A stretch of DNA of 37,035 bases from Thermoplasmata archaeon (GTDB lineage Archaea; Thermoplasmatota; Thermoplasmata; Thermoplasmatales; Thermoplasmataceae). Under the pieces are notes generated by a model, which had not been told where the DNA came from, ran no database searches, and saw only the letters and a list, made by a program, of their open reading frames with translations. Shown here one piece after another: positions 14,340 to 36,976 of this stretch; the stretch's first letter is position 1, and each line of letters opens with the position of its first letter. Both the position numbers and the translations under genes were made by a program. The stretch is taken from the NCBI GenBank assembly GCA_021816745.1, contig JAKAWY010000007.1:1-37035 (forward strand). Reading direction: 5' to 3'.

Positions 14340-15161
14340 ATGAATATTTCTTTTTACAGTGATAAAAACCACTTATTCCCTCTCCTTTCAGATGATGGGA
14401 AAACCGTTATGTTACGTGAGAGTGTTGAAATCAACGCTTTTTATGCGAATTTTGATCATTATATGAAAATGTTCGGCAATGGAGATTCAACAAAGATCGA
14501 ACCGAATGCAGTGCCGATTAACCCTACAAAGATATTATGCCCTGCCGTTAATTTCATATCCCATTCATCAGAAACAAAAACAAAATCACCTGAATCACCA
14601 TATTTTTTTACTAAATTCAATGATTCAATAACGGGGTACAAAGACCCTATACTGCTTAGAAAATCAGTAACTGAACTGGATTACGAAGGGGAAATTGCAG
14701 CCATCATCGGAAAGAAAACAAAAGATGCATCAATAAAAAATGCACTGGAATCAATTGTGGCTTTAGCTGTTGTCAATGATGTCAGTGCCAGGAACTTACA
14801 GGAAAATATCACTCCCGGTTTAGGAAAAAACTGGATTCTCGGGAAGGCCCAGGAATCATTCCTCCCAGTATCTGCATGGGTTCATAAATGGGATGGTTCT
14901 GACGTTGAAATCGTTACCACTGTGAATGGAGAGAAAAGGCAGTACGGAAAAATTTCAGAAATGATATTCTCGTTCCCGGAAATGATATCTTATCTTTCAA
15001 AACATATTACGCTTTCACCTGGAGACATTATACTCAGTGGAACCCCTAAGGGTGTTGCAAAATCCGGAAAATTTCCCTATCTCAAGAACGGTGACAAGGT
15101 TAAGGTATCCTCCAGTAGAATTGGATACATTGAAAACACGGTGAAGTCGGTTGATTACTGA
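14340..15161 (+). CDS. Fumarylacetoacetate hydrolase (FAH) family enzyme
   Basis: The 273-residue protein carries the FAH C-terminal domain. The metal-ligand phrase DYEGEIAAIIGKK is at 114-126 (E116, E118). The third metal ligand is D147 in VVNDVSARNLQ. The end of the active site is LSGTPKGVA near 233. An N-terminal region of about 65 residues precedes the domain. The family hydrolyses or decarboxylates beta-diketo or oxo acids (fumarylacetoacetate, acylpyruvates, oxaloacetate, 2-hydroxyhepta-2,4-diene-1,7-dioate), so the substrate is open. The stop overlaps the 293-codon gene downstream by 11 bases. Why a metabolic enzyme is coupled to a DNA-translocase-like ATPase gene is not clear. Confidence 0.9.
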   Translation: MNISFYSDKNHLFPLLSDDGKTVMLRESVEINAFYANFDHYMKMFGNGDSTKIEPNAVPINPTKILCPAVNFISHSSETKTKSPESPYFFTKFNDSITGYKDPILLRKSVTELDYEGEIAAIIGKKTKDASIKNALESIVALAVVNDVSARNLQENITPGLGKNWILGKAQESFLPVSAWVHKWDGSDVEIVTTVNGEKRQYGKISEMIFSFPEMISYLSKHITLSPGDIILSGTPKGVAKSGKFPYLKNGDKVKVSSSRIGYIENTVKSVDY

Positions 15162-16032
15162 AATTGAAAAAAAATCTATTGAAGGTCTTTCCCTTCCGTT
15201 TGATCCTGTACTATTTGATATCCCAGATTCTAAATTTACGCTGCGTGAAGATCCTAACAGGCACACAACATTATTACAATCGTTTAAGATAGATAACAGT
15301 GAAGTTTCTGTTAAATCATTTTTCATGGACTGGTTTTATTACGGCTTTCCCAAAAATATGATGAAGACTGCATCAGAATATTTCAGCAATGGCAGGGCAA
15401 TCCAGCTGGAATTTTCCGGGAGAGTTTATAATTGCTTCATAGGTGAGGATTATAAAGGCAGGAGTTCAGCCTGTATCTTCTTGAATGGAACCTGCCTGGA
15501 ATTTAGATCTAGTAATTTGAATGAACAACTTTTACAAAACCTATTTTCCAGAGCAGAACAAAAGTTAATTTCCAGAGGAACCAGATTTCATGAAAAATCA
15601 TTCTACGCCACCCATATGGGGACATATTCGTGGTTTGAGGATGAGAGGATAGGACGTCTAAGCTGGAAAGATTCCGCATTGTATTCCATTGGAGAGTTTG
15701 ATTCAGATTCGACAGGAATACTGCCCGGTCTTCATAAAATATCAATATTCAAAAACAAACACAATGAATACCTATGGCTTGACGTGGCGGCAAAGGCCAA
15801 AGGTGTCAGGAACCTTTCATACAGGTTTAATTTCCGTGGCAACCTGTTCACCGAGAATTTAAAGATGAATTCGTGGAGAGTTGCTATTCTATCTCAAAAC
15901 GGGCCCGCCCTCATGGTTAAGGAAACCCCTTTTTTCAGGCATATAATGGCTCTTCCTGCAATTGAACCTGGAGATCTGTGGAAATATGTGGACATTATCG
16001 AAAACTTAAATTTTGACCCATTTATGCCTTAG
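15151..16032 (+). CDS. Unrecognised 293-residue protein coupled to a HerA/TraG-like ATPase
   Basis: I do not recognise this protein. It is soluble, without signal peptide or membrane segment, with mixed alpha/beta composition and many aromatic residues. One stretch (FSGRVYNCFIGEDYKGRSSA) is strand-rich. The start is a TTG at 15151 that overlaps the FAH stop. There is no ATG before the DWFYYGF region about 55 codons in, so an overlapping TTG is the best available choice. The stop TAG at 16030-16032 sits one base before a GTG, the likely start of the ATPase. This tight arrangement suggests a partner or regulatory subunit of that ATPase, but no sequence motif proves it. Confidence 0.7.
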   Translation: MITEIEKKSIEGLSLPFDPVLFDIPDSKFTLREDPNRHTTLLQSFKIDNSEVSVKSFFMDWFYYGFPKNMMKTASEYFSNGRAIQLEFSGRVYNCFIGEDYKGRSSACIFLNGTCLEFRSSNLNEQLLQNLFSRAEQKLISRGTRFHEKSFYATHMGTYSWFEDERIGRLSWKDSALYSIGEFDSDSTGILPGLHKISIFKNKHNEYLWLDVAAKAKGVRNLSYRFNFRGNLFTENLKMNSWRVAILSQNGPALMVKETPFFRHIMALPAIEPGDLWKYVDIIENLNFDPFMP

Positions 16033-16033
16033 G

Positions 16034-17902
16034 GTGCCATATCGATATAAAATCGGGATACCACCGAAGAGGGTGAGTTATCCAGGAATCGAAATTGGCA
16101 CCATGGGTAGCGGAGAAAAAGCTGTTATCCCGGAAAATGAACTGATGTTTCACACCCTTGTGTTAGGCAGAACTGGAACTGGAAAATCCAACCTTCTTAA
16201 AATTTTATTTAATTGCATTTCAAGGGATGATAATAGCAACATAATCCTGGTGGACTTTCACGGTACACTTTCCAGGGAAATAATTTGCATGAACCATGGT
16301 AAAAGATTAGTGTTTATTTCACCGGGCGACCCAAAAAGCAATGAATTTAAAACCAGGTTAAATGTGCTAAAAGGTTCAAACTTATCTCCAGTGATGCTCT
16401 ATAACATCCAAAAAATATTTTCCCAGGAAGATTCCCTATCATCAGGGACATGGGGGCCAAGGCTACAGACCGTAATGACATCTGTTTTGCGTGAAGTGGT
16501 CTTAAAGGATAGTGATTCGACTCTTTCTGATTTTTTATCCACATTGCTTTCCAAGGAAAAAATGAACGAACTAATCACAGGCATCAGGGGAGATACAAAA
16601 GAAGTTCTAAGGGGCCTGGTGAAAAGATGGGAAAACTGGACGGAATATTCAATGAGCACTGTAAATAAACTTCTACCAGTATTGTCAGATCCAGAGATAA
16701 GTCAAATTGTCTCTTCCCGAATAGAATCTTTTGATCTGTACGGATCACTCCTGGAGGGTGGTAAACTGGTGGTTATTGATGTATCCAAAACTGTTCATTC
16801 AGAACAACAGGGAAGAGTAGTAGCCTCAATGCTTCTAAACAGAATTTGGGCAGATATTCTTAAAAATGGTATGCCACACAAGACAATCCTGATGGTTGAT
16901 GAATCCCAAAACCTGAATTCATCTTTACTGTCAGAAATTCTATCAGAGGGTAGGAAATTCAATTTTTTCATAATGCTGGCCTCCCAGTATCTGGGACAGC
17001 ACAATGATGAACTTATAAATGCCATCATGTCCAATTGCGGACATATCTATGCCTTCAACATGTCAGAAGGGGATTCACAAAGAATTTGCAAACTGTTCTC
17101 CGATGACAGAACAAGAAGAAAAGTGATGAACTCCATACTAATGGGACCATATCACGACGTCACCCATATTAACAATCTGAACGAAAATGGAGTTTCAGTG
17201 AGAGGCTTTACCCCTTATCCTGTTCAATTAAATATTGACATGAAAAAATATGACGATTCGGTAAAGGAAAGCCTTAGGAAATATGGGAACGGGCCAGATG
17301 AAATAGTGATCACTCCTGATACTGTTGAAAAAAGCATGCATCGCCAGATGCAGGAAAGATTCAGGGATTATCTTGGGAGGAAATCCATACCTTCTGAATT
17401 AGAGGAAAAAACTGGACTAAACAGAGCAGATCTGGTTTATTATGCTGGATCGACACCCGTTATGGTGGAAGTTGAATTATACGATACCACCAGATTTGAA
17501 AGGAGCATCAAAAAAGCCTGCAATTATAGCAATTCTTTTCTTATATTCCTATGCGCGGAGTATCAGGGAATGAATCTCTATTCAAAATTCAAGGATAGTG
17601 AGTTGTTGATAAAAAATCTGGACAGAATGAAAGCTTTAGGAGATAAAACTTTCATGGATCTGGAAAAAATATCCATAATTGAAGAAAGGAAAAATTCATA
17701 TTTTCTTATTAAGGATGGAAAATACCGCAGGTGGAAACCTGAATATGCACTTACAGAGACATCATTCAAGATTTCACCTGATATACATGGAAGTGAAACA
17801 TTGAATATATTAAGGGAAATGAGAATTTCCAACACACATGTGTACAGGTTTAAGGTGGATTCTGCTTATAAAACGTCCTTTCTGAATGATTTGTTTATTT
17901 AG
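16034..17902 (+). CDS. HerA/TraG-like DNA-translocase ATPase with C-terminal nuclease-like domain
   Basis: This FtsK-HerA superfamily ATPase has 622 residues from the GTG at 16034; a TTG at 16013 would add seven. In TTG-based numbering, Walker A is GRTGTGKS at 52-59, the HerA-type strand LVDFHG is at 79-84, and Walker B is ILMVDESQN at 292-300. The phrase LSEGRKFNFFIMLASQYLGQ (310-329) and the sensor region after it are typical of VirD4/TraG and bacterial T4SS-like DUF87 proteins. Residues about 440-520 look PD-(D/E)xK-like: a helix (MQERFRDYLGRK), D473 in RADLVYY, E486-V-E488 in VMVEVEL, then a hydrophobic strand. No membrane helices are seen. It may unwind or translocate DNA and cleave it. 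NurA is not found next to it. Confidence 0.85.
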   Translation: MPYRYKIGIPPKRVSYPGIEIGTMGSGEKAVIPENELMFHTLVLGRTGTGKSNLLKILFNCISRDDNSNIILVDFHGTLSREIICMNHGKRLVFISPGDPKSNEFKTRLNVLKGSNLSPVMLYNIQKIFSQEDSLSSGTWGPRLQTVMTSVLREVVLKDSDSTLSDFLSTLLSKEKMNELITGIRGDTKEVLRGLVKRWENWTEYSMSTVNKLLPVLSDPEISQIVSSRIESFDLYGSLLEGGKLVVIDVSKTVHSEQQGRVVASMLLNRIWADILKNGMPHKTILMVDESQNLNSSLLSEILSEGRKFNFFIMLASQYLGQHNDELINAIMSNCGHIYAFNMSEGDSQRICKLFSDDRTRRKVMNSILMGPYHDVTHINNLNENGVSVRGFTPYPVQLNIDMKKYDDSVKESLRKYGNGPDEIVITPDTVEKSMHRQMQERFRDYLGRKSIPSELEEKTGLNRADLVYYAGSTPVMVEVELYDTTRFERSIKKACNYSNSFLIFLCAEYQGMNLYSKFKDSELLIKNLDRMKALGDKTFMDLEKISIIEERKNSYFLIKDGKYRRWKPEYALTETSFKISPDIHGSETLNILREMRISNTHVYRFKVDSAYKTSFLNDLFI

Positions 17903-19324: not shown

Positions 19325-20659
19325 ATGGATAAAACTTTGGAGAACATAATCGAGCTTTCCCATCACGTGAGAGAACACGTTCCATCACAATCTTCCCTGG
19401 AAGAACTCAAGAAAAGAGTTGCTGATATTGCAATTACAAGTTATGGCGCATTCAATGCCACTCCTGTTAAATTAGCAATGAATGCACTGATGCCATCATC
19501 AGGGAACAGAAATTCCACCGTATTCTTTACCAATAACAAAATTTCCACAGAAAATGCAGCTTTTATAAATGGAACCATGACAAGGTATCTTGATTATAAC
19601 GATACATACCTTTCAAAGGAGGCTTTGCACCCATCTGACAATATTCCTCCGATTATAGGGATGGCAGAAGGTGGAAGCCATTCAGGTATTGACATTTTAA
19701 AATCAGCCTATGTGGCGTACAATGTAGTATGTGGTCTATCTGATGCGGTATCCATCAGGGACAGAGGCTGGGATCATGTCACTTATATCAGCATTTCTTC
19801 TGCTGCAGGAATGTCTCACCTTCTTGAACTAAATCATGAGAAATTCTCCCATGCAATGAATTTATCCATTAATAATAACATAAGCATGAGGCAGACCAGG
19901 GCTGGAGAGCTCAGCATGTGGAAAGGTGCAACAGCAGCCAACGCATGCAGAAACAGTGTGTTTGGAGTCAATCTCGCCGAAAAGGGATTCACCGGCCCAG
20001 CTCCCATCTTTGAGGGGGAAATGGGTTTCTTCAGGCAGGTTTCCGGAGAAATGTCACCAGATTTCGTGACAGACCATATGGGAAAAACCATGATCAAGAA
20101 CTATCCTGTTGAGTACCATGCCATGAGTGCAGCTGAGGTTGCTGAACAGTTGAAGGATGAAATAACCGGTAAAATTGAGTCTGTAGATGTTGAAACCTTC
20201 AGGGTTGCCCATACCATCATTGTGAAGGATCCGGAAAAATTAAGGCCAAAGACCAGGGAAACTGCAGATCACAGTCTTCCTTATATTATTGCATATACAC
20301 TGAAGTACGGGGCCCCCACTCCAAATTCTTATGATGATAAGTTCCTCAGGGATGAGACTATTTTACACCTTATAGACAGGATGAAATTTACAGTCACAAA
20401 GAAATTCGACAGTATGTATCCTGAATACCTTCCTGTAAAGATCGAGGTGAAGACTGACAGGGGTACTTTCAGCAAGGAACTGGATGCTCCAAAGGGACAC
20501 AATAAGAAGCCTTACACATGGGATGATCTTAAAGTGAAAGCATCAAGAATGATGGGTGAAGACTCAGCCAAAGAATTGATTAATTTGTCCAGATCTTTTG
20601 AAAAGAGATCACCTGAAGAGTATCTGGAGGTTCTCAGGAATGTCAAGACTCAGAGATAA
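19325..20659 (+). CDS. prpD: MmgE/PrpD family protein, probable 2-methylcitrate dehydratase
   Basis: The 444-residue protein is a MmgE/PrpD member: an all-alpha first domain (with FINGTMTRYLDYNDTYLS and HPSDNIPPIIGMAEGGSHSG, the family active-site loop) and a smaller second domain containing NYPVEYHAMSAAEVAEQL. PrpD dehydrates 2-methylcitrate to 2-methyl-cis-aconitate in propionate degradation. The family also includes cis-aconitate decarboxylases and other hydro-lyases, so the assignment leans on context: the next two genes are prpB and a citrate-synthase-type gene. The ATG follows A/T-rich sequence 19290-19303 at leaderless-promoter distance. The prpB start lies inside its 3' end. Confidence 0.85.
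   Translation: MDKTLENIIELSHHVREHVPSQSSLEELKKRVADIAITSYGAFNATPVKLAMNALMPSSGNRNSTVFFTNNKISTENAAFINGTMTRYLDYNDTYLSKEALHPSDNIPPIIGMAEGGSHSGIDILKSAYVAYNVVCGLSDAVSIRDRGWDHVTYISISSAAGMSHLLELNHEKFSHAMNLSINNNISMRQTRAGELSMWKGATAANACRNSVFGVNLAEKGFTGPAPIFEGEMGFFRQVSGEMSPDFVTDHMGKTMIKNYPVEYHAMSAAEVAEQLKDEITGKIESVDVETFRVAHTIIVKDPEKLRPKTRETADHSLPYIIAYTLKYGAPTPNSYDDKFLRDETILHLIDRMKFTVTKKFDSMYPEYLPVKIEVKTDRGTFSKELDAPKGHNKKPYTWDDLKVKASRMMGEDSAKELINLSRSFEKRSPEEYLEVLRNVKTQR
20626..20640 (+). promoter_or_regulatory. Shine-Dalgarno sequence that fixes the prpB start
   Basis: GGAGG at 20626-20630 lies nine bases before the ATG at 20640, within the end of prpD. It supports that ATG over an upstream in-frame ATG at 20598. 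Confidence 0.6.
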
Positions 20660-21530
20660 TATTAATTCTGGGCCATCAGGCCTCAGGAAAATGCTGGGAA
20701 AGGGAATTATTGCATGTCCAGGCGTATTTTCCGGAATGACGGCCATAATGGCAGAAAGAGCCGGATTCAAAGCTGCATATCTGTCAGGTTCCGGGGTTGC
20801 CGGAATGATGGGTATACCTGACCTTGCAATGACCACTATGGATGAAGTATCTATGGATGCCAGGAAAATAATTGAAATATCTTCATTACCACTTATAGTG
20901 GACTGTGATACAGGATTTGGAGAAACAATCAATGTTACCAGAACCATCAAGGTGATGGAATCCACCGGTGTTGCTGCAATCCATCTGGAAGATCAGATCC
21001 TGCCAAAAAAATGTGGCCATCTTGCTGGAAAGGAATTAGTTCCGGTGGAAGAAATGAAAGCTAAACTCCAGGCTGCAGTTTCCGCCAGAAAAAACAAAGA
21101 TTTTACCATAATAGCCAGAACGGATGAAAGATCTGTAGGTGGTTTTGATAGCGCAGTTGAACGTGCTAAAGAGTATATCGCTTCTGGTGCAGACTGCATA
21201 TTCCCTGAAGCATTGCAAAGTGTTGAGGAGTTTAAGGAATTCAGGAAGAAGATTCCTGGATTTCTATTGGCCAACATGACTGAATTTGGGAAAAGTCCGT
21301 TACTTTCAGTGGATGAACTGGGAAAACTAGGTTATGATATTGCATTATTCCCGCTTACTGCCTTCAGGGCTACCATTAAAACTGCAGAAGATGTATATGA
21401 AAAACTAAAGAAAGCAGGTTCCCAGAGAGGGTTTATAAATGACCTGATGAGCAGGGAACACTTTTATGAAGTAATTGGATACGCGGATTACGAGGCTGAA
21501 GATTCAAGCCTTGCAAAAAGGAGAGCATAA
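20640..21530 (+). CDS. prpB: Methylisocitrate lyase (isocitrate lyase/PEP mutase superfamily)
   Basis: This enzyme splits 2-methylisocitrate into pyruvate and succinate. The 296-residue TIM-barrel protein shows the metal-binding DCDTGFGE (D88, D90), LEDQILPKKCGH with the catalytic Cys (KKCGH at 123-127), and IIARTDERSVGGFDSA. This combination is typical of PrpB; larger isocitrate lyases have an additional insertion that is lacking here. It overlaps the prpD gene by 20 bases with a clear Shine-Dalgarno sequence, and ends two bases before the next gene's start. Substrate could also be isocitrate or an oxaloacetate-type 2-oxo acid, but the operon favours methylisocitrate. Confidence 0.9.
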   Translation: MSRLRDNINSGPSGLRKMLGKGIIACPGVFSGMTAIMAERAGFKAAYLSGSGVAGMMGIPDLAMTTMDEVSMDARKIIEISSLPLIVDCDTGFGETINVTRTIKVMESTGVAAIHLEDQILPKKCGHLAGKELVPVEEMKAKLQAAVSARKNKDFTIIARTDERSVGGFDSAVERAKEYIASGADCIFPEALQSVEEFKEFRKKIPGFLLANMTEFGKSPLLSVDELGKLGYDIALFPLTAFRATIKTAEDVYEKLKKAGSQRGFINDLMSREHFYEVIGYADYEAEDSSLAKRRA

Positions 21531-21532
21531 CT

Positions 21533-22597
21533 ATGTCAGATGAAATTATTGTTCCAAAAGGACTTGCAAATGTTGTTGTAGATTCCACATCTATTGCCAC
21601 CACCGGAGCTTCCGGAAATCTTCTTTACAGAGGATATCGTGCAGTTGAACTTGCTGAAAAGAAAACTTTTGAGGAAACAGCTTATCTTATTGTTAATGGT
21701 AAACTTCCAGACAAGGAAGAACTGTCCAGATTCAGGAATGAACTGTTTTCCAATATGAAAGTTTCAAAGGAAGTCCTTGACATAATGAAGATCATCAAGG
21801 AACATGATATTATGAGAAATATACGATCCATGGTATCCCTGTATCCTTATGCAAAAGGAAATGATCAGTCATTATTTACCCAGATGGAGGCAAAGCTTCC
21901 GCTTCTTTCTGCATATTCTGCATCTGCATTTCTTGGAACTCCCGTTAAAGAACCCACCGGGGAAGGTTTTTCACAGAAATTCTTTTCATTGATATCAAAT
22001 GGCAATTCTAAAAACTGGAGATCTTTTGAGAAACTGATGATTCTATACCTGGAACACGAATTCAATGCGTCCACCTTTGCACTAAGGGTATCTGCTTCTA
22101 CCTTAACCGATCCTGTTTCTGCAGTAACATCCGCTCTGGCAACGCTGAAAGGCCCCCTGCATGGTGGAGCTAATTCTGAGGTGCTGACTTATCTGGGTTC
22201 CATTGAGAATGAGGCAGATGCAAAGAAGTTTATTGAGGGTAAACTGGAAAGAAAAGAGAAAATAATGGGATTTGGTCACAGGGTATACAAGAAGAAGGAT
22301 CCAAGGGCCCAGTTTGTCAGGGAAGAACTTGGCAGGATTGCACCTAAGGATCCAAAATACGTTGCTGCTGAAATGGTTGAGAATTACATGTTCGAGAAAA
22401 AAGGACTTCCAGCCAACGTGGATCTGTATGCTGCAGTGCTTATGGATTATCTTGGAATTAATGAGATGTTCTATCTGCCAGTGTTTGCATGTTCCAGAAT
22501 ATTTGGATGGAATGCCCATTATTTCGAGCAGCTGAAGGATAATAAGATAATAAGGCCAGCATCCAGTTACAGCGGGCCCGAAGAGAGGGGACTCTAA
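21533..22597 (+). CDS. Citrate synthase / 2-methylcitrate synthase
   Basis: The 354-residue enzyme condenses acetyl-CoA or propionyl-CoA with oxaloacetate. The catalytic histidines are in LHGGANSEV (H210) and GFGHRVYKKKDPRA (H249). H175 in EHEFNASTFALRV and the catalytic aspartate in PANVDLYAAVL (about residue 298) are also present. It belongs to the short, dimeric type found in archaea and Gram-positive bacteria, which often serves both the TCA and methylcitrate cycles. Its position after prpD-prpB favours propionyl-CoA, but specificity is not decidable by sequence alone. AAGGAGA at 21518-21524 is a Shine-Dalgarno eight bases before the ATG. The last codons overlap the convergent JAMM gene by four bases. 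Confidence 0.92.
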   Translation: MSDEIIVPKGLANVVVDSTSIATTGASGNLLYRGYRAVELAEKKTFEETAYLIVNGKLPDKEELSRFRNELFSNMKVSKEVLDIMKIIKEHDIMRNIRSMVSLYPYAKGNDQSLFTQMEAKLPLLSAYSASAFLGTPVKEPTGEGFSQKFFSLISNGNSKNWRSFEKLMILYLEHEFNASTFALRVSASTLTDPVSAVTSALATLKGPLHGGANSEVLTYLGSIENEADAKKFIEGKLERKEKIMGFGHRVYKKKDPRAQFVREELGRIAPKDPKYVAAEMVENYMFEKKGLPANVDLYAAVLMDYLGINEMFYLPVFACSRIFGWNAHYFEQLKDNKIIRPASSYSGPEERGL

Positions 22598-31727: not shown

Positions 31728-32651
31728 TCATGCCAGTGTGATTATGTCATTTAGTACAGCACCGGCAGTCTCTACTGGCCCATCTGTATCTTCTGACACT
31801 GTGACCGTAGACCTTCCAACAAATCCCATTCGCATTGACATAGCCATTGGATCGAGTCTAAGGAAAGAATCTCCCGTTTCCAGTGATTCAATTCTTGAAG
31901 TGACAGTAAATTTCTCATCGATACCAGCTGTAACTAGTAACCTCATATTTTTGTCAGGTGAATTTCTAATACCCTCATATTTTAGATCCTTCAGCCTTAA
32001 ATTCTGGCCAAAAATTGCATTACTTATGATTATTGCCTTTCTTGCTGAATCAAGTCCGGTTAAATCATCTGACATGTCAGTCTCACCAATTCCCTCTTTA
32101 ATAGCCATTTTGCAGGCCTCATCAAAAGATATGCCTTCAGTAATCATCCGCATTACATAGTTGGCTGTAAGATTTACAATTCCCTGAAAATAATTGCATT
32201 GGAATCCCTGTAAAGATGAATTTAGAAGACTGAAAATAGGCAACCCGCCAGCCACCGTAGCTTCAAAAAGCATCCTTTTTCCTGTTTCATTTTTCTTAGC
32301 CATTATTTCCTGCCAGTGGTTTGCCAACCCGGACTTGTTGGCTGATACAACATCTGCCCCTTTTTCAAATGCTTTCCTATAGGTTTCAAGTTCCATTTTC
32401 CCGTCTTTTGAAGCGGTCCTCAGATCCACATATATGTCAAAATCTAATTCATCAAATGATTTTTTCTCTGGATGTTCAGATGGTGAATTTAAAAAATTCA
32501 ACACATCAGTTTTTTCCAGATGTTTCCCGGTAATCTGGCCCCTGCGATTCTCAATTCCAGCAACTGTAAATGGCATATCCCCGCTGTAAATCAAATCCAG
32601 AAGGTTTTTACCAACATTTCCAGTTCCTGCTATGAACACTGAACGCTTCAA
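31728..32651 (-). CDS. hom: Homoserine dehydrogenase
   Basis: This enzyme reduces aspartate semialdehyde to homoserine with NAD(P)H in threonine and methionine synthesis. The 307-residue monofunctional form has [12 protein letters not shown] (Rossmann GxGxxG), SANKSGLA with N105 and K106, [10 protein letters not shown], and the catalytic-domain phrases [30 protein letters not shown]. The ACT domain of longer enzymes is absent, so it is probably not inhibited by threonine through that domain. It starts at a TTG that overlaps the gyrA stop as TTGA, so it is translationally coupled to a DNA topoisomerase gene, an unusual pairing. Confidence 0.93.
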
Positions 32652-35035
32652 GCCAGATCAACCTTTCCTACCGAGATAACCTCATCACCCTCTTCCAGGT
32701 TGATAATTGTAACACCCTGTGCATTTCTTCCGATGGCCCTGATTGAAGAAACCGGAGTCCTGAGAGTTTGTTCCATCCTGGTCATTACAATAATTTCGTC
32801 ACCTTCAGAAACAGGCATTGAGGAAACTAGCTTACCGGTTCTCTTGGTAATGTTCATTATTTTAATTCCAGAAGATCCACGGTGATGTGGGGTAAACTCA
32901 ATTTCAGGCGTTTTCTTACCCAAACCCTTGGCTGATATGGTAAATACATGTTCTCCGGGATTCAATGGGAATGCATTAAGAACTGTCTCATTAAGCCCAA
33001 TCCTCATAGCTTTTACACCCATGGAAGTCCTTCCAGTAGTCCTCATTTCAGCAATCCTGAATCTTGATGCCCTACCGGTATCTGAAACAATCATGGCATC
33101 CATGCTGCTGTCAGCAAAGAAAACTGAGGAAAGGCTGTCTCCATCTTCAAGCCTGATTGCCCTAATTCCCACAGATCTTATATTCTCAAATTCAGAAACA
33201 TTTGTCTTTTTGATAAGACCATGTGTGGTGGCCATCATAATGTATCCGTCTATTGAAAATATTCCACGCAGCATATGAGATATGTTTTCGCCGGGCTGCA
33301 GATTGAAGAATGTGGATGCTATGACACCAGCTCCCCTTCTGCTCTTGCTTTCAATGGAGTAAGCTTTGATACGGTATACTCTTCCAGAGGAAGTAAAGAA
33401 TAAAACAGGATCATGTGAACTGCAGTATACAATATCTCTCACCTGGTCTTCGTTCCTTACACTGGTCTGTACACCTCTTCCGCCTCTTTTCTGTGACCTG
33501 TATTCATCCAGTGTTACCCTTTTAATGAAACCCTTGTCAGTAAGGATAAGAACTGAATCTTCAACTGGAATGGCATCCTCCATGTTTATAATTCCAATTT
33601 CACCCTTTATAACTTCAGTCCTTCTTTTGTCTCCGAATTTTTTAATTATGTCCTGAAGGTCTTCAATAAGAATCTCCCTTCTCAGTGAATCCTTCTGAAT
33701 AATCTCCTCAAGCTTAGTGATGCCGGATTTTACCTCAGCCAGTTCTTTCTGGGTTTTTTCTCTTTCAAGCCCCGTAAGTCTCTGCAGACGCATTTCCATT
33801 ATGGAATCGACCTGCCTGTCTGAAAGCGGAAAGTTTGATTTTAGGTGTGCTTTTGCCTCGGCAGAATCCTTGCTTTTCCTTATTGTATTAATTACAGCAT
33901 CCAGGTTATCCAGTGCTATGTTGAGACCTTCCAGAATGTGTTCTCGTTCCTTGAGTTTGGCAACATCAAACTGACTTCTTTTAAGGATGACATTTAACCT
34001 GTGCCTTATGAAACTGTCGATCATTTCCTTAAGGTTCATCTGCTTTGGCTGGTTGTCTTCCAGTACAAGATTGATAATTCCAATGCTCTGCTCCAGTTCG
34101 GTGTGCATATATAGCTGGTTAAGAACCATCTCCTTCAGATCATCATCGCTTACTTTTATTACAACCCTCATACCTTCCCTGTCACTCTCATCCCTGATGT
34201 CCGTGATTCCTGTGATTATTCCATCATTGAGCTTTTTGGCAAGTTTCTCCAAAAATAGTGATTTATTTACTGAATATGGCAAACTGGAGATCACAATGTG
34301 TTTCTTTGTGGACAGGTCAACTACTCCTCTGGTTCGTACCTTTCCCCTTCCATTTGTATAAGCATCCATGAGTTCCTTGCTGAACCATAGAATACCTCCA
34401 CCCGGGAAATCAGGCCCCTTAATATGGGTAAGCATATCCTCCACAGTGCAGGATGGATTCTTTACTGCCATAATTGCAGCATTGCACACCTCATTGAGGT
34501 TGTGAGGAAGCATGTTTGTAGCCATACCCACAGCAATTCCTGAAGTCCCGTTCAATAACAGGTTTGGCACTCTGGAAGGCAGGTATTCAGGTTGCTGAAG
34601 TGTCCCATCAAAATTCAGGTAAAATGGTACGGTTTCCTTGTCAATGTCTTCCAGCATAGCCTCTGACAGTTCAGAAAGCCTGGCCTCAGTATACCTCATG
34701 GCTGCAGGTTCATCCCCATCTATGGACCCGAAGTTCCCCTGGCCGTCTATGAGCATATACCTCATACTGAAATCCTGGGCCATTCTGGCCATGGCATCAT
34801 ATATGGCACTATCCCCATGTGGATGGTATTTACCCATGGTTTCTCCTACTATCCTGGCTGACTTTTTGTATGGCTTGTCAGAAGTAAATCCATTTTCATA
34901 CATTGAAAATAGAATTCTTCTCTGAACAGGTTTTAACCCGTCTCTCACATCCGGAATGGCCCTGCTGACAATCACACTCATTGCATAATCCAGGTACGAC
35001 TTCTTCATTTCACTATCAATATGTCTTGTTTCCAT
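32648..35035 (-). CDS. gyrA: DNA gyrase subunit A
   Basis: The 795-residue protein is a bacterial-type type IIA topoisomerase subunit A. It has the helix-turn-helix and the [10 protein letters not shown] phrase (33-42). The catalytic tyrosine Y115 lies in AMRYTEARL after R114, and a C-terminal six-bladed pinwheel follows. The GyrA box is QKRGGRG at 515-521. This seven-residue box marks it as gyrase, which wraps DNA and introduces negative supercoils, and not as topoisomerase IV. It follows gyrB by nine bases. A strong Shine-Dalgarno (GAGGTGAT) overlaps the gyrB stop. Bacterial gyrases in archaea are the product of lateral transfer (established for Thermoplasmatales and others). Confidence 0.97.
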
Positions 35036-35038
35036 GAA

Positions 35039-35046
35039 ATCACCTC
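35039..35046 (-). promoter_or_regulatory. Shine-Dalgarno of gyrA overlapping the gyrB stop
   Basis: On the minus strand, GAGGTGAT matches the 16S anti-Shine-Dalgarno (GGAGGTGATC) across eight bases. It ends three bases before the gyrA ATG (35035) and contains part of the gyrB stop codon. Ribosomes ending gyrB are placed to start gyrA. Confidence 0.7.
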
Positions 35047-36976
35047 AAACGTCTATGTCCTTGACGTACCTTGCATTCTGCTCGATGAATATTCTCCTTG
35101 GTTCAACTTTTTCACCCATAAGTATGGAGAACATCCTGTCTGCCTCTTCAACGCTGTCTATGTCAACCTTAACGAGTTTTCTTGTATCAGGATTCATTGC
35201 AGTTTCCCATAACTGGTCACCATTCATTTCTCCCAGACCTTTGAATCTCTGGATTATTACATTTTTACCCATGCTCTTTACAACATCATTCATTTCTTCT
35301 TCTGTATAGACATAAACCACTTTATCCCCTTTCTGGATCCTGAAAAGTGGCGGTTCGGCGAAATAAATATTTCCGTTGGTGATGAGTGATCTTGAGTGGC
35401 GGTAGAAAAACGTCAGTAGCAGAGTTCTTATATGTGCTCCATCCACATCAGCATCAGTCATTATGATGATCTTCCCGTACCTCAATTTCTTAAGATCAAT
35501 TTCATCACCTATACCGGATCCAAGAACTGCTATGAGATCCCTTATAATTTGATTTGAAAAAGCCTTGTCATCGCTTACTTTCTCAACGTTCAGGATTTTA
35601 CCCCTCAACGGTAAAACGGCCTGGAATTCCCTGTTCCTTGCCTGTTTGGTTGAACCTCCTGCTGAATTACCCTCCACTATGTACAACTCAGACTTTTCCT
35701 TGTCTGTGGATGAACAGTCTGAAAGTTTGCCAGGAAGCGTGCCACTCTCCAGGGTTGTTTTTCGTCTTACAAGTTCCCTTGCCCTTCTTGATGCCTCCCT
35801 GGCCTCAGCAGCAAGCATTGCCCTCTTAACGATCTTATCCGCGTATGCAGGATAACTTTCAAGAAACAACTTCATGGTGGATTCCACCATGGACTGGACG
35901 ATTCCTTTAACTTCACTGTTGCCCAGTTTTGCCTTTGTCTGGCCTTCAAACTGGGGATTCATCATCTTCACATGAACTATGGAAACTATTCCCTCCCTGA
36001 TATCTTCACCGATGACAGTATCAATTCCCTTGTAAGTGTCCTTTTTCCTGGCAAAATCCAGCACGGCTTTTGAGAGGCCAGCCTTGAATCCTGCGAGATG
36101 TGTTCCACCCTCAGGGGTTCCTATATTGTTTACAAATCCCTCAATAATCTCACTGCCTGAATTAGTATACTGTAGTGCATATTCCAAAATTATGCCGTCT
36201 TTCTCAGATGTTTCATGAATTGTGCTGCTGAGTAATGGATTTTCCCCTTCGGAGATATATGCCACGAATGCAGAGAGGCCCCCATCGAAATGAAAAGAGT
36301 TTACATAAGAATCAGATTCATCTGAAAGAATGAAGGTGATGTTTGAATTCAGGAATGCCAGTTCTCTAAGCCTTTTTTCAAGTATCTCCCTTGAAAATTT
36401 CAAAGTCTGGAATATTTCAGGGTCAGGCCAGAATTTGGTCACAGTGCCGGATTTATCAGGCATGTTCAGTTTGATTCCCATGCCAGTAATCTCATCAGGA
36501 GTTCTCTTAGCTATGGTTCCCTGTGTGATTCCCTTGCTGAATTCCATGGAATACATAGACTCAGGTTTTTTAACTACAGCAACTAATCTTGAAGAGAGTG
36601 CATTGACAACATGAACACCCACTCCATGCAGTCCTCCTGTTATTTTGTAAACCTTCTTGTCGAATTTAGCGCCGCTATGCAATTCCGTTAAAACAATTTC
36701 GAGGCCAGGCTTTCCATATTTTGGATGAATATCAACAGGGATACCCCTTCCATTATCCTCTACCGTAATACTGCCATCTGTTCCTATGGTGACATAGATA
36801 TGATCCCCGTAACCTGCCCCAGCTTCATCAACACTGTTGTCCACCACTTCATAAACCATATGGTGAAGTCCTTCTGTACTGGTATTTCCGATATACATGC
36901 CAGGAACTTTCCTGACAGCTTTTAATCCTTCCAGCACCTCAATTTTAGATGCGTCGTAATTATCCAATTTAACCAT
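35045..36976 (-). CDS. gyrB: DNA gyrase subunit B
   Basis: The 643-residue ATPase subunit has a GHKL ATP site with E43-V-V-D46-N (EVVDNSVDEA), DNGRGIP, GGLHGVGVHVV and a TOPRIM domain (EGNSAGGSTKQARNREFQAV and TDADVDGAHI). The C-terminal QRFKGLGEMN is intact. It has the shorter form lacking the 165-residue insert of enterobacterial GyrB. It is first in the gyrB-gyrA-hom operon, and a TTTATAA box about 23 bases before the ATG suggests a leaderless mRNA. ATP-driven supercoiling through the A2B2 complex is known for the family. Confidence 0.97.
   Translation of the reverse strand: MVKLDNYDASKIEVLEGLKAVRKVPGMYIGNTSTEGLHHMVYEVVDNSVDEAGAGYGDHIYVTIGTDGSITVEDNGRGIPVDIHPKYGKPGLEIVLTELHSGAKFDKKVYKITGGLHGVGVHVVNALSSRLVAVVKKPESMYSMEFSKGITQGTIAKRTPDEITGMGIKLNMPDKSGTVTKFWPDPEIFQTLKFSREILEKRLRELAFLNSNITFILSDESDSYVNSFHFDGGLSAFVAYISEGENPLLSSTIHETSEKDGIILEYALQYTNSGSEIIEGFVNNIGTPEGGTHLAGFKAGLSKAVLDFARKKDTYKGIDTVIGEDIREGIVSIVHVKMMNPQFEGQTKAKLGNSEVKGIVQSMVESTMKLFLESYPAYADKIVKRAMLAAEAREASRRARELVRRKTTLESGTLPGKLSDCSSTDKEKSELYIVEGNSAGGSTKQARNREFQAVLPLRGKILNVEKVSDDKAFSNQIIRDLIAVLGSGIGDEIDLKKLRYGKIIIMTDADVDGAHIRTLLLTFFYRHSRSLITNGNIYFAEPPLFRIQKGDKVVYVYTEEEMNDVVKSMGKNVIIQRFKGLGEMNGDQLWETAMNPDTRKLVKVDIDSVEEADRMFSILMGEKVEPRRIFIEQNARYVKDIDV

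Follow-up and report, generated by a model that had tools for sequence, protein, structure and literature searches.

The window, the whole 37,035-nucleotide (nt) stretch of DNA analyzed here from an acid-loving Thermoplasmata archaeon (GenBank JAKAWY010000007.1, contig C15; genome completeness, 79%), contains two adjacent genes that encode an ATPase of the VirD4/TraG class with a predicted nuclease domain at its C terminus and, directly upstream, a 293-amino-acid (aa) protein, hereafter the partner. The interpretation that we favor, with a probability of roughly 0.45, is that this chromosomally encoded pair is the module that loads and cuts DNA in an exchange machine of the Thermoplasmatales that resembles type IV secretion systems (T4SSs) and is Ced-like. 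The computed results are the class of the motor, a PD-(D/E)xK fold with a D...ExE pattern plus a Lys, a soluble partner that is co-inherited with the motor, and a separate VirB2/VirB6/VirB4-like cassette. No relaxase can be recognized in the conjugative or Ced/Ted systems of archaea (PMC9905601), which leaves it to be explained how DNA is cut and loaded for transfer in these organisms. A motor of the coupling class that carries a predicted nuclease of its own, conserved throughout an order and with a counterpart on conjugative plasmids of haloarchaea, is a concrete candidate for this step, and the pair may supply the cutting and loading so far missing from DNA exchange between archaeal cells. 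That the genus has an ATPase of this class is already known, and the Cuniculiplasma genome paper (PMC5155288) lists one, probably this gene; among the papers searched, we found none describing the nuclease fusion or the partner.

The motor is RecA-like with intact Walker A and B motifs, and all three of the core motifs named in the original prediction, which had been made from the sequence alone (GRTGTGKS, DFHG, and MVDESQN), are present. It matches the Pfam families DUF87 (E = 8.5e-12) and TrwB_AAD_bind (E = 5.4e-6), both beyond their cutoffs. In a tree of ATPase domains, made by a quick method and with long branches flagged, the window protein grouped with TraG of haloarchaeal plasmids, TraG-like proteins of candidate phyla radiation (CPR) bacteria, and a VirD4-like protein from a VirB cluster of family f3 (families carry our own numbers); support by the Shimodaira-Hasegawa-like approximate likelihood ratio test (SH-aLRT) was 98%. 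HerA of the same organisms and VirB4 fell elsewhere. ATPases with the nuclease fusion, from families f1, f3, and f4, formed one group (SH-aLRT, 83). The NCBIfam models for HerA (20.9 bits; cutoff, 970) and CedB (24.2 bits; cutoff, 700) did not reach their cutoffs, nor did CedD, which scored far below its own (29.7 versus 600 bits) although it was the best NCBIfam match of the ATPase. By these sequence comparisons, the window ATPase belongs with the VirD4/TraG-type coupling ATPases and not with HerA, as had been predicted; the accompanying label "HerA-like" was loose. The P-loop motor, the TrwB_AAD_bind match, and the position in the tree are shared with the type IV coupling proteins VirD4, TraG, TraD, and TrwB, but the window ATPase differs from them in being fused to a nuclease domain, in having a partner of a new family, in lying outside a VirB operon, and in having no membrane anchor.

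The C terminus had been predicted to resemble a restriction endonuclease on the basis of the pattern D473...E486-x-E488 (residue numbers count from position 16013, in the 629-residue frame), and whether the D and E residues vary among homologues had been proposed as a check. They do not: in 41 homologues H443, D473, E486, E488, D491, and K501 were invariant, and the mean column identity of the region was 32%. The pattern is thus real at the level of the alignment, beyond chance. An AlphaFold model of residues 395 to 629 (m6264fd5662e6; predicted local distance difference test [pLDDT] score, 86) has an alpha-beta-beta-beta-alpha-beta core. When this model was searched against the PDB, ~45 of the 50 best matches (counted by hand) were to the PD-(D/E)xK superfamily, each of them weak (E = 0.003 to 0.1); they include the R2 endonuclease, YaeQ, SPO1766, Bax1, SfsA, RecU, Hjc, McrC, and type II enzymes. 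There was also a weak Pfam match to CoiA_nuc in 5 of the 41 homologues (best E = 8.8e-4). The model predicts a PD-(D/E)xK nuclease fold for the C terminus. It has the core topology and the D...E placement of Hjc, RecU, Bax1, CoiA, YaeQ, and the R2 endonuclease, but it differs from these nucleases in its fusion to a translocase and in the active site: the position of the canonical catalytic Lys is occupied by Glu (the invariant E488), and an invariant Lys (K501) lies in the following helix. Because ExE is an active variant in BamHI, nuclease activity of the domain is plausible, and because D473, E486, and E488 do not vary even between distant genera, it can be argued that metal binding is retained. 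In families f3 and f4 an additional stretch precedes the nuclease domain; the f4 version resembles a winged helix (HTH_45; E = 0.02, a match below the cutoff). A suspected resemblance to Replic_Relax (PF13814) was not confirmed, there being no PF13814 match in the window's own genome, in the f1 genomes listed, or among the families displayed for the 41 homologues.

The partner had been described as having no recognizable family, and we found none in Pfam, PADLOC, or PHROGs and only a chance-level match in NCBIfam. Its AlphaFold model is confident (pLDDT, 91; predicted template modeling [TM] score, 0.90). Searches of the PDB and of viral structure libraries gave no meaningful match (best query-normalized TM-score, 0.24), and Foldseek matches to RseB and to sliding-clamp-like folds were discarded (query-normalized TM-score, ≤0.23). 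In alignments, K55, D60, P67, K68, G98, Y101, G113, E117, W161, E163, R166, W172, and Y224 are invariant, and the motifs KEFFMDWFYxGFPKNLM and WFEEERIxRLxW stand out; a profile self-alignment found no internal repeat. The partner represents a new and well-defined family, with a confident predicted structure that matches no solved fold. That it is a detached VirD4 N-terminal domain was ruled out by profile comparison with the N termini of the f3-cluster VirD4 and CPR proteins and with the haloarchaeal upstream protein discussed below. Weak matches to the family occur outside the order, at G132:C6:270723 and G317:C15:4073 (same class, family f15; E = 1e-9 to 2e-8), and are possibly distant homologues.

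By profile search the partner occurs in 35 of 300 genomes of the class, nearly all of them in families f1 and f3. Separation of the two genes in other genomes had been named as evidence that would count against the partnership. Among 61 relatives, the ATPase was present in all 33 that have the partner (Fisher P = 6e-6, with kinship ignored); by hand tally, the genes were touching (within ~100 bp) in 19, on the same strand within 5 kb in 5, and on separate contigs in 9. In 24 loci of the genome-contig collection, the pair was contiguous or overlapping save for one gap of 1,074 bp and one of 83 bp, and the order, which differs between genera, was partner-ATPase in 14 and ATPase-partner in 10. 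These results support the 293-aa protein as a true partner of the ATPase. The unit is single-copy, is spread over three families of the order Thermoplasmatales, and is conserved in most genera. Families f1, f3, and f4 each group in the tree as vertical descent predicts, and the module thus appears from its sequences to be conserved across the order and vertically inherited, which makes a mobile defense island unlikely. Nor did we see unusually fast, defense-like divergence; the unit has diverged no faster than most neighboring metabolic genes.

A parallel was found on plasmids of Haloterrigena, Natrinema, Halomontanus, Natronorubrum, and Halorussus. These carry, in order, genes for a VirB6-like protein with 6 to 7 transmembrane segments, a VirB4-like ATPase with 2, a soluble protein of 375 to 399 aa, and a TraG-like ATPase of ~1,020 aa (transmembrane counts were checked on three of these); the genes of the operon overlap. 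The haloarchaeal TraG, annotated as a "TraM recognition domain" protein (e.g., JMJ58_RS20930 of pHTS138), resembles the window ATPase in its VirD4-class motor, in the overlapping gene for a soluble protein ahead of it, and in its C terminus, which carries the same H...PD...ExE...K series. It differs in being ~400 residues longer, plasmid-borne, and inside a VirB6-VirB4 operon. A profile of its C terminus matched the window domain with E = 8.9e-5 and 60% probability, whereas four unrelated control alignments gave E values of at least 0.12. This match, which is moderate, ties the TraG-nuclease fusion to a transfer operon at the level of sequence.

The original prediction had noted that no conjugation genes are nearby. 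This holds for the window, where no integrase, relaxase, or VirB protein was found among the proteins scanned, but not for the genome, which has a T4SS/Ced-like cassette on contigs C9 and C44 encoding a 99-aa protein with 2 transmembrane segments, a 318-aa protein with 6, and a VirB4-like protein. The cassette is intact in Cuniculiplasma divulgatum, which we take to be the nearest complete relative of the window genome, and the parts in the window genome correspond to it. The T4SS parts of C. divulgatum have been catalogued together with an ATPase, CSP5_0791, assigned to arCOG04816 TraG/TraD/VirD4 (PMC5155288); CSP5_0791 is likely the orthologue of the window ATPase, an identity taken from its map position and not from its locus tag. 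In composition the pilin/VirB6/VirB4-like cassette is like that of the Ced/Ted systems (CedA, CedB, CedD, and CedA1), and it occurs in the same genomes as the window ATPase. The Ced ATPases are VirB4-like, and in the portion of the source consulted no nuclease domain is described for them (PMC11868833). VirB4 is strongly divergent, with a mean identity within the genus of 33% versus 49% for the window ATPase.

Under the exchange-machine interpretation, the ATPase would form a ring that translocates DNA, and the fused nuclease would nick or cut DNA to give a transferable end, the job of the relaxase in bacteria. Such a cutting activity would be needed because recognizable relaxases are absent from archaeal conjugative elements (PMC9905601). 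The partner may bind the motor or the DNA substrate, much as a relaxosome accessory or loading factor does, and the motor would pass the DNA on to the VirB4/VirB6-like channel, whose genes lie elsewhere. A further step, about which we are doubtful, is that the fused nuclease and the partner replace the relaxase by making and loading the DNA end for euryarchaeal chromosomal exchange, and that an enzyme of this relaxase-free kind is common, in principle, to the conjugative plasmids of haloarchaea and the chromosomes of Thermoplasmatales.

Several results weigh against the pair being part of an exchange machine. The pair is unlinked to the VirB cassette, and strict co-occurrence of the ATPase with the cassette was not seen: in genera g10, g18, and g19, which lack this ATPase, VirB4 and/or VirB6-like genes are retained, so the channel can occur on its own and does not have the ATPase as an obligatory component. 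No partner was detectable in some genera that do have the ATPase, among them g6 (apparently Thermoplasma), and family f3 has a second VirD4-like ATPase inside its VirB cluster besides the nuclease-fused one. Profile comparisons detected no homology between the partner and either the N termini of other VirD4s or the soluble protein upstream of the haloarchaeal TraG. Finally, a simple hydropathy scan for an N-terminal transmembrane anchor found 0 segments in the window ATPase; the same scan also found 0 in the haloarchaeal TraG, so such an anchor may not be a general feature in archaea.

The chief rival explanation, which we consider rather unlikely, is that the pair is a stand-alone translocase-nuclease for repair or recombination, like HerA-NurA or AddAB, whose substrate is chromosomal DNA with breaks or branches; the partner would be the subunit that binds DNA ends or junctions, and no DNA transfer would be involved. 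The order-wide, single-copy, apparently vertical pattern and the lack of linked transfer genes in the window fit this explanation, as do the fold matches to the Holliday junction resolvases Hjc and RecU and the repair nuclease Bax1; in addition, detectable NurA is mostly absent from families f3 and f4. HerA-NurA is likewise a motor of the FtsK-HerA superfamily coupled to a nuclease, but the window ATPase is in a separate clade, with the conjugation-type motors, and its nuclease is fused and of the PD-(D/E)xK type, not NurA. Moreover, the same genome has its own canonical HerA-NurA locus, with Rad50, on contig C2. The idea that the window ATPase substitutes for HerA was dropped when a search of the family found HerA beside NurA; in this Thermoplasmataceae HerA (L263:3636-5075 and L262), Ala replaces the first Gly of Walker A (AQTGAGKS).

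We regard as improbable that the pair is a domesticated remnant of an ancient conjugative element, in which the nuclease domain has lost catalysis and retains DNA binding alone, with the pair acting in the segregation of chromosomes or plasmids. The Glu in place of the canonical Lys and the similar fusion on haloarchaeal plasmids are in its favor, but the invariance of the acidic residues and the BamHI precedent given above weigh against it. Slightly less probable still is the defense function that the original prediction had raised beside chromosomal DNA processing, in which the motor would recognize and pump the DNA of viruses or plasmids and the nuclease degrade it: ATPase-nuclease pairs are common in defense and the best PADLOC match of the ATPase is mad8 of the MADS system (E = 5.4e-17), but ten neighboring window proteins scanned included no other mad gene or defense module, phage records gave no match, and conservation in most genera, an ordinary rate of change, and a tree in agreement with vertical descent weigh against it. 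Of that prediction, the chromosomal nature of the unit was supported and the defense function was not.

Both open reading frames are at the coordinates originally given (Table 1). The partner's TAG stop occupies 16030 to 16032, and the GTG start of the ATPase follows one base beyond it, as predicted; this start agrees with those of the homologues (MPFRY...), and the longest frame runs from 16013 to 17902. The two genes and one for a fumarylacetoacetate hydrolase (FAH)-family enzyme lie head to tail with tiny gaps or overlaps, the FAH and partner genes sharing 11 bases. In several genera the FAH gene is directly 5' of the pair, whichever of the two comes first. The neighborhood of the pair consists of metabolic genes, and the FAH-family enzyme is probably a metabolic operon-mate outside the mechanism. 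Promoter- and terminator-like signals at the operon were no more numerous than in shuffled sequence, and inverted repeats were scattered and imperfect.

TABLE 1 Positions of the genes, motifs, and residues discussed and of the cassette elsewhere in the genome
Feature	Position	Strand	Basis or remark
FAH-family enzyme, upstream neighbor	14340..15161	+	Pfam FAA_hydrolase, E = 1.3e-57
Partner, 293 aa, new family, soluble	15151..16032	+	TTG start; alignments, AlphaFold model
VirD4/TraG-class ATPase with predicted C-terminal PD-(D/E)xK-type nuclease domain, 622 aa from GTG	16034..17902	+	Motifs, Pfam, tree, model, fold search
Walker A, GRTGTGKS	16166..16189	+	G52, G57, K58 invariant
DFHG motif (DPHG in most homologues)	16253..16264	+	D81, H83 invariant
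Walker B, D296-E297 (MVDE)	16898..16903	+	Invariant in homologue alignment
Predicted PD-(D/E)xK core, alpha-beta-beta-beta-alpha-beta	17315..17593	+	Model, fold search, invariant columns; CoiA_nuc weak
D473	17429-17431	+	
E486	17468-17470	+	
E488	17474-17476	+	
K501	17513-17515	+	
H443, D491		+	
Ced/T4SS-like cassette of the window genome (G000)	C9:1-1860 and C44:23824-24417 (L254, L255)		Split by contig ends

Related gene clusters were seen in other genomes. Loci L242 to L248 of family f3 (e.g., L242:4977-10545) have a compact T4SS-like operon for a small protein with 3 transmembrane segments, a 343-aa protein with 8, a 196-aa protein with 2, a VirB4-like protein of 527 aa, and a VirD4-like protein of 679 aa that is without the nuclease domain. 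In loci L249 to L253 of family f4, a VirD4-related ATPase of 844 to 998 aa is in a conserved cluster with ~270-aa multitransmembrane and ~250-aa proteins. In CPR bacteria (L148, L150, and L151), the GSWGPRLE motif recurs in a TraG-like ATPase, after which come four small membrane proteins resembling components of the VirB2/VirB6 type. Elsewhere in the window, genes for MmgE/PrpD, a PEP-mutase/isocitrate-lyase-like protein, and a citrate-synthase-like protein are in a row at 19325 to 22597, an arrangement that resembles a methylcitrate cycle cluster, and Pfam matches place the genes for DNA gyrase A and B side by side at 32648 to 36976 on the minus strand.

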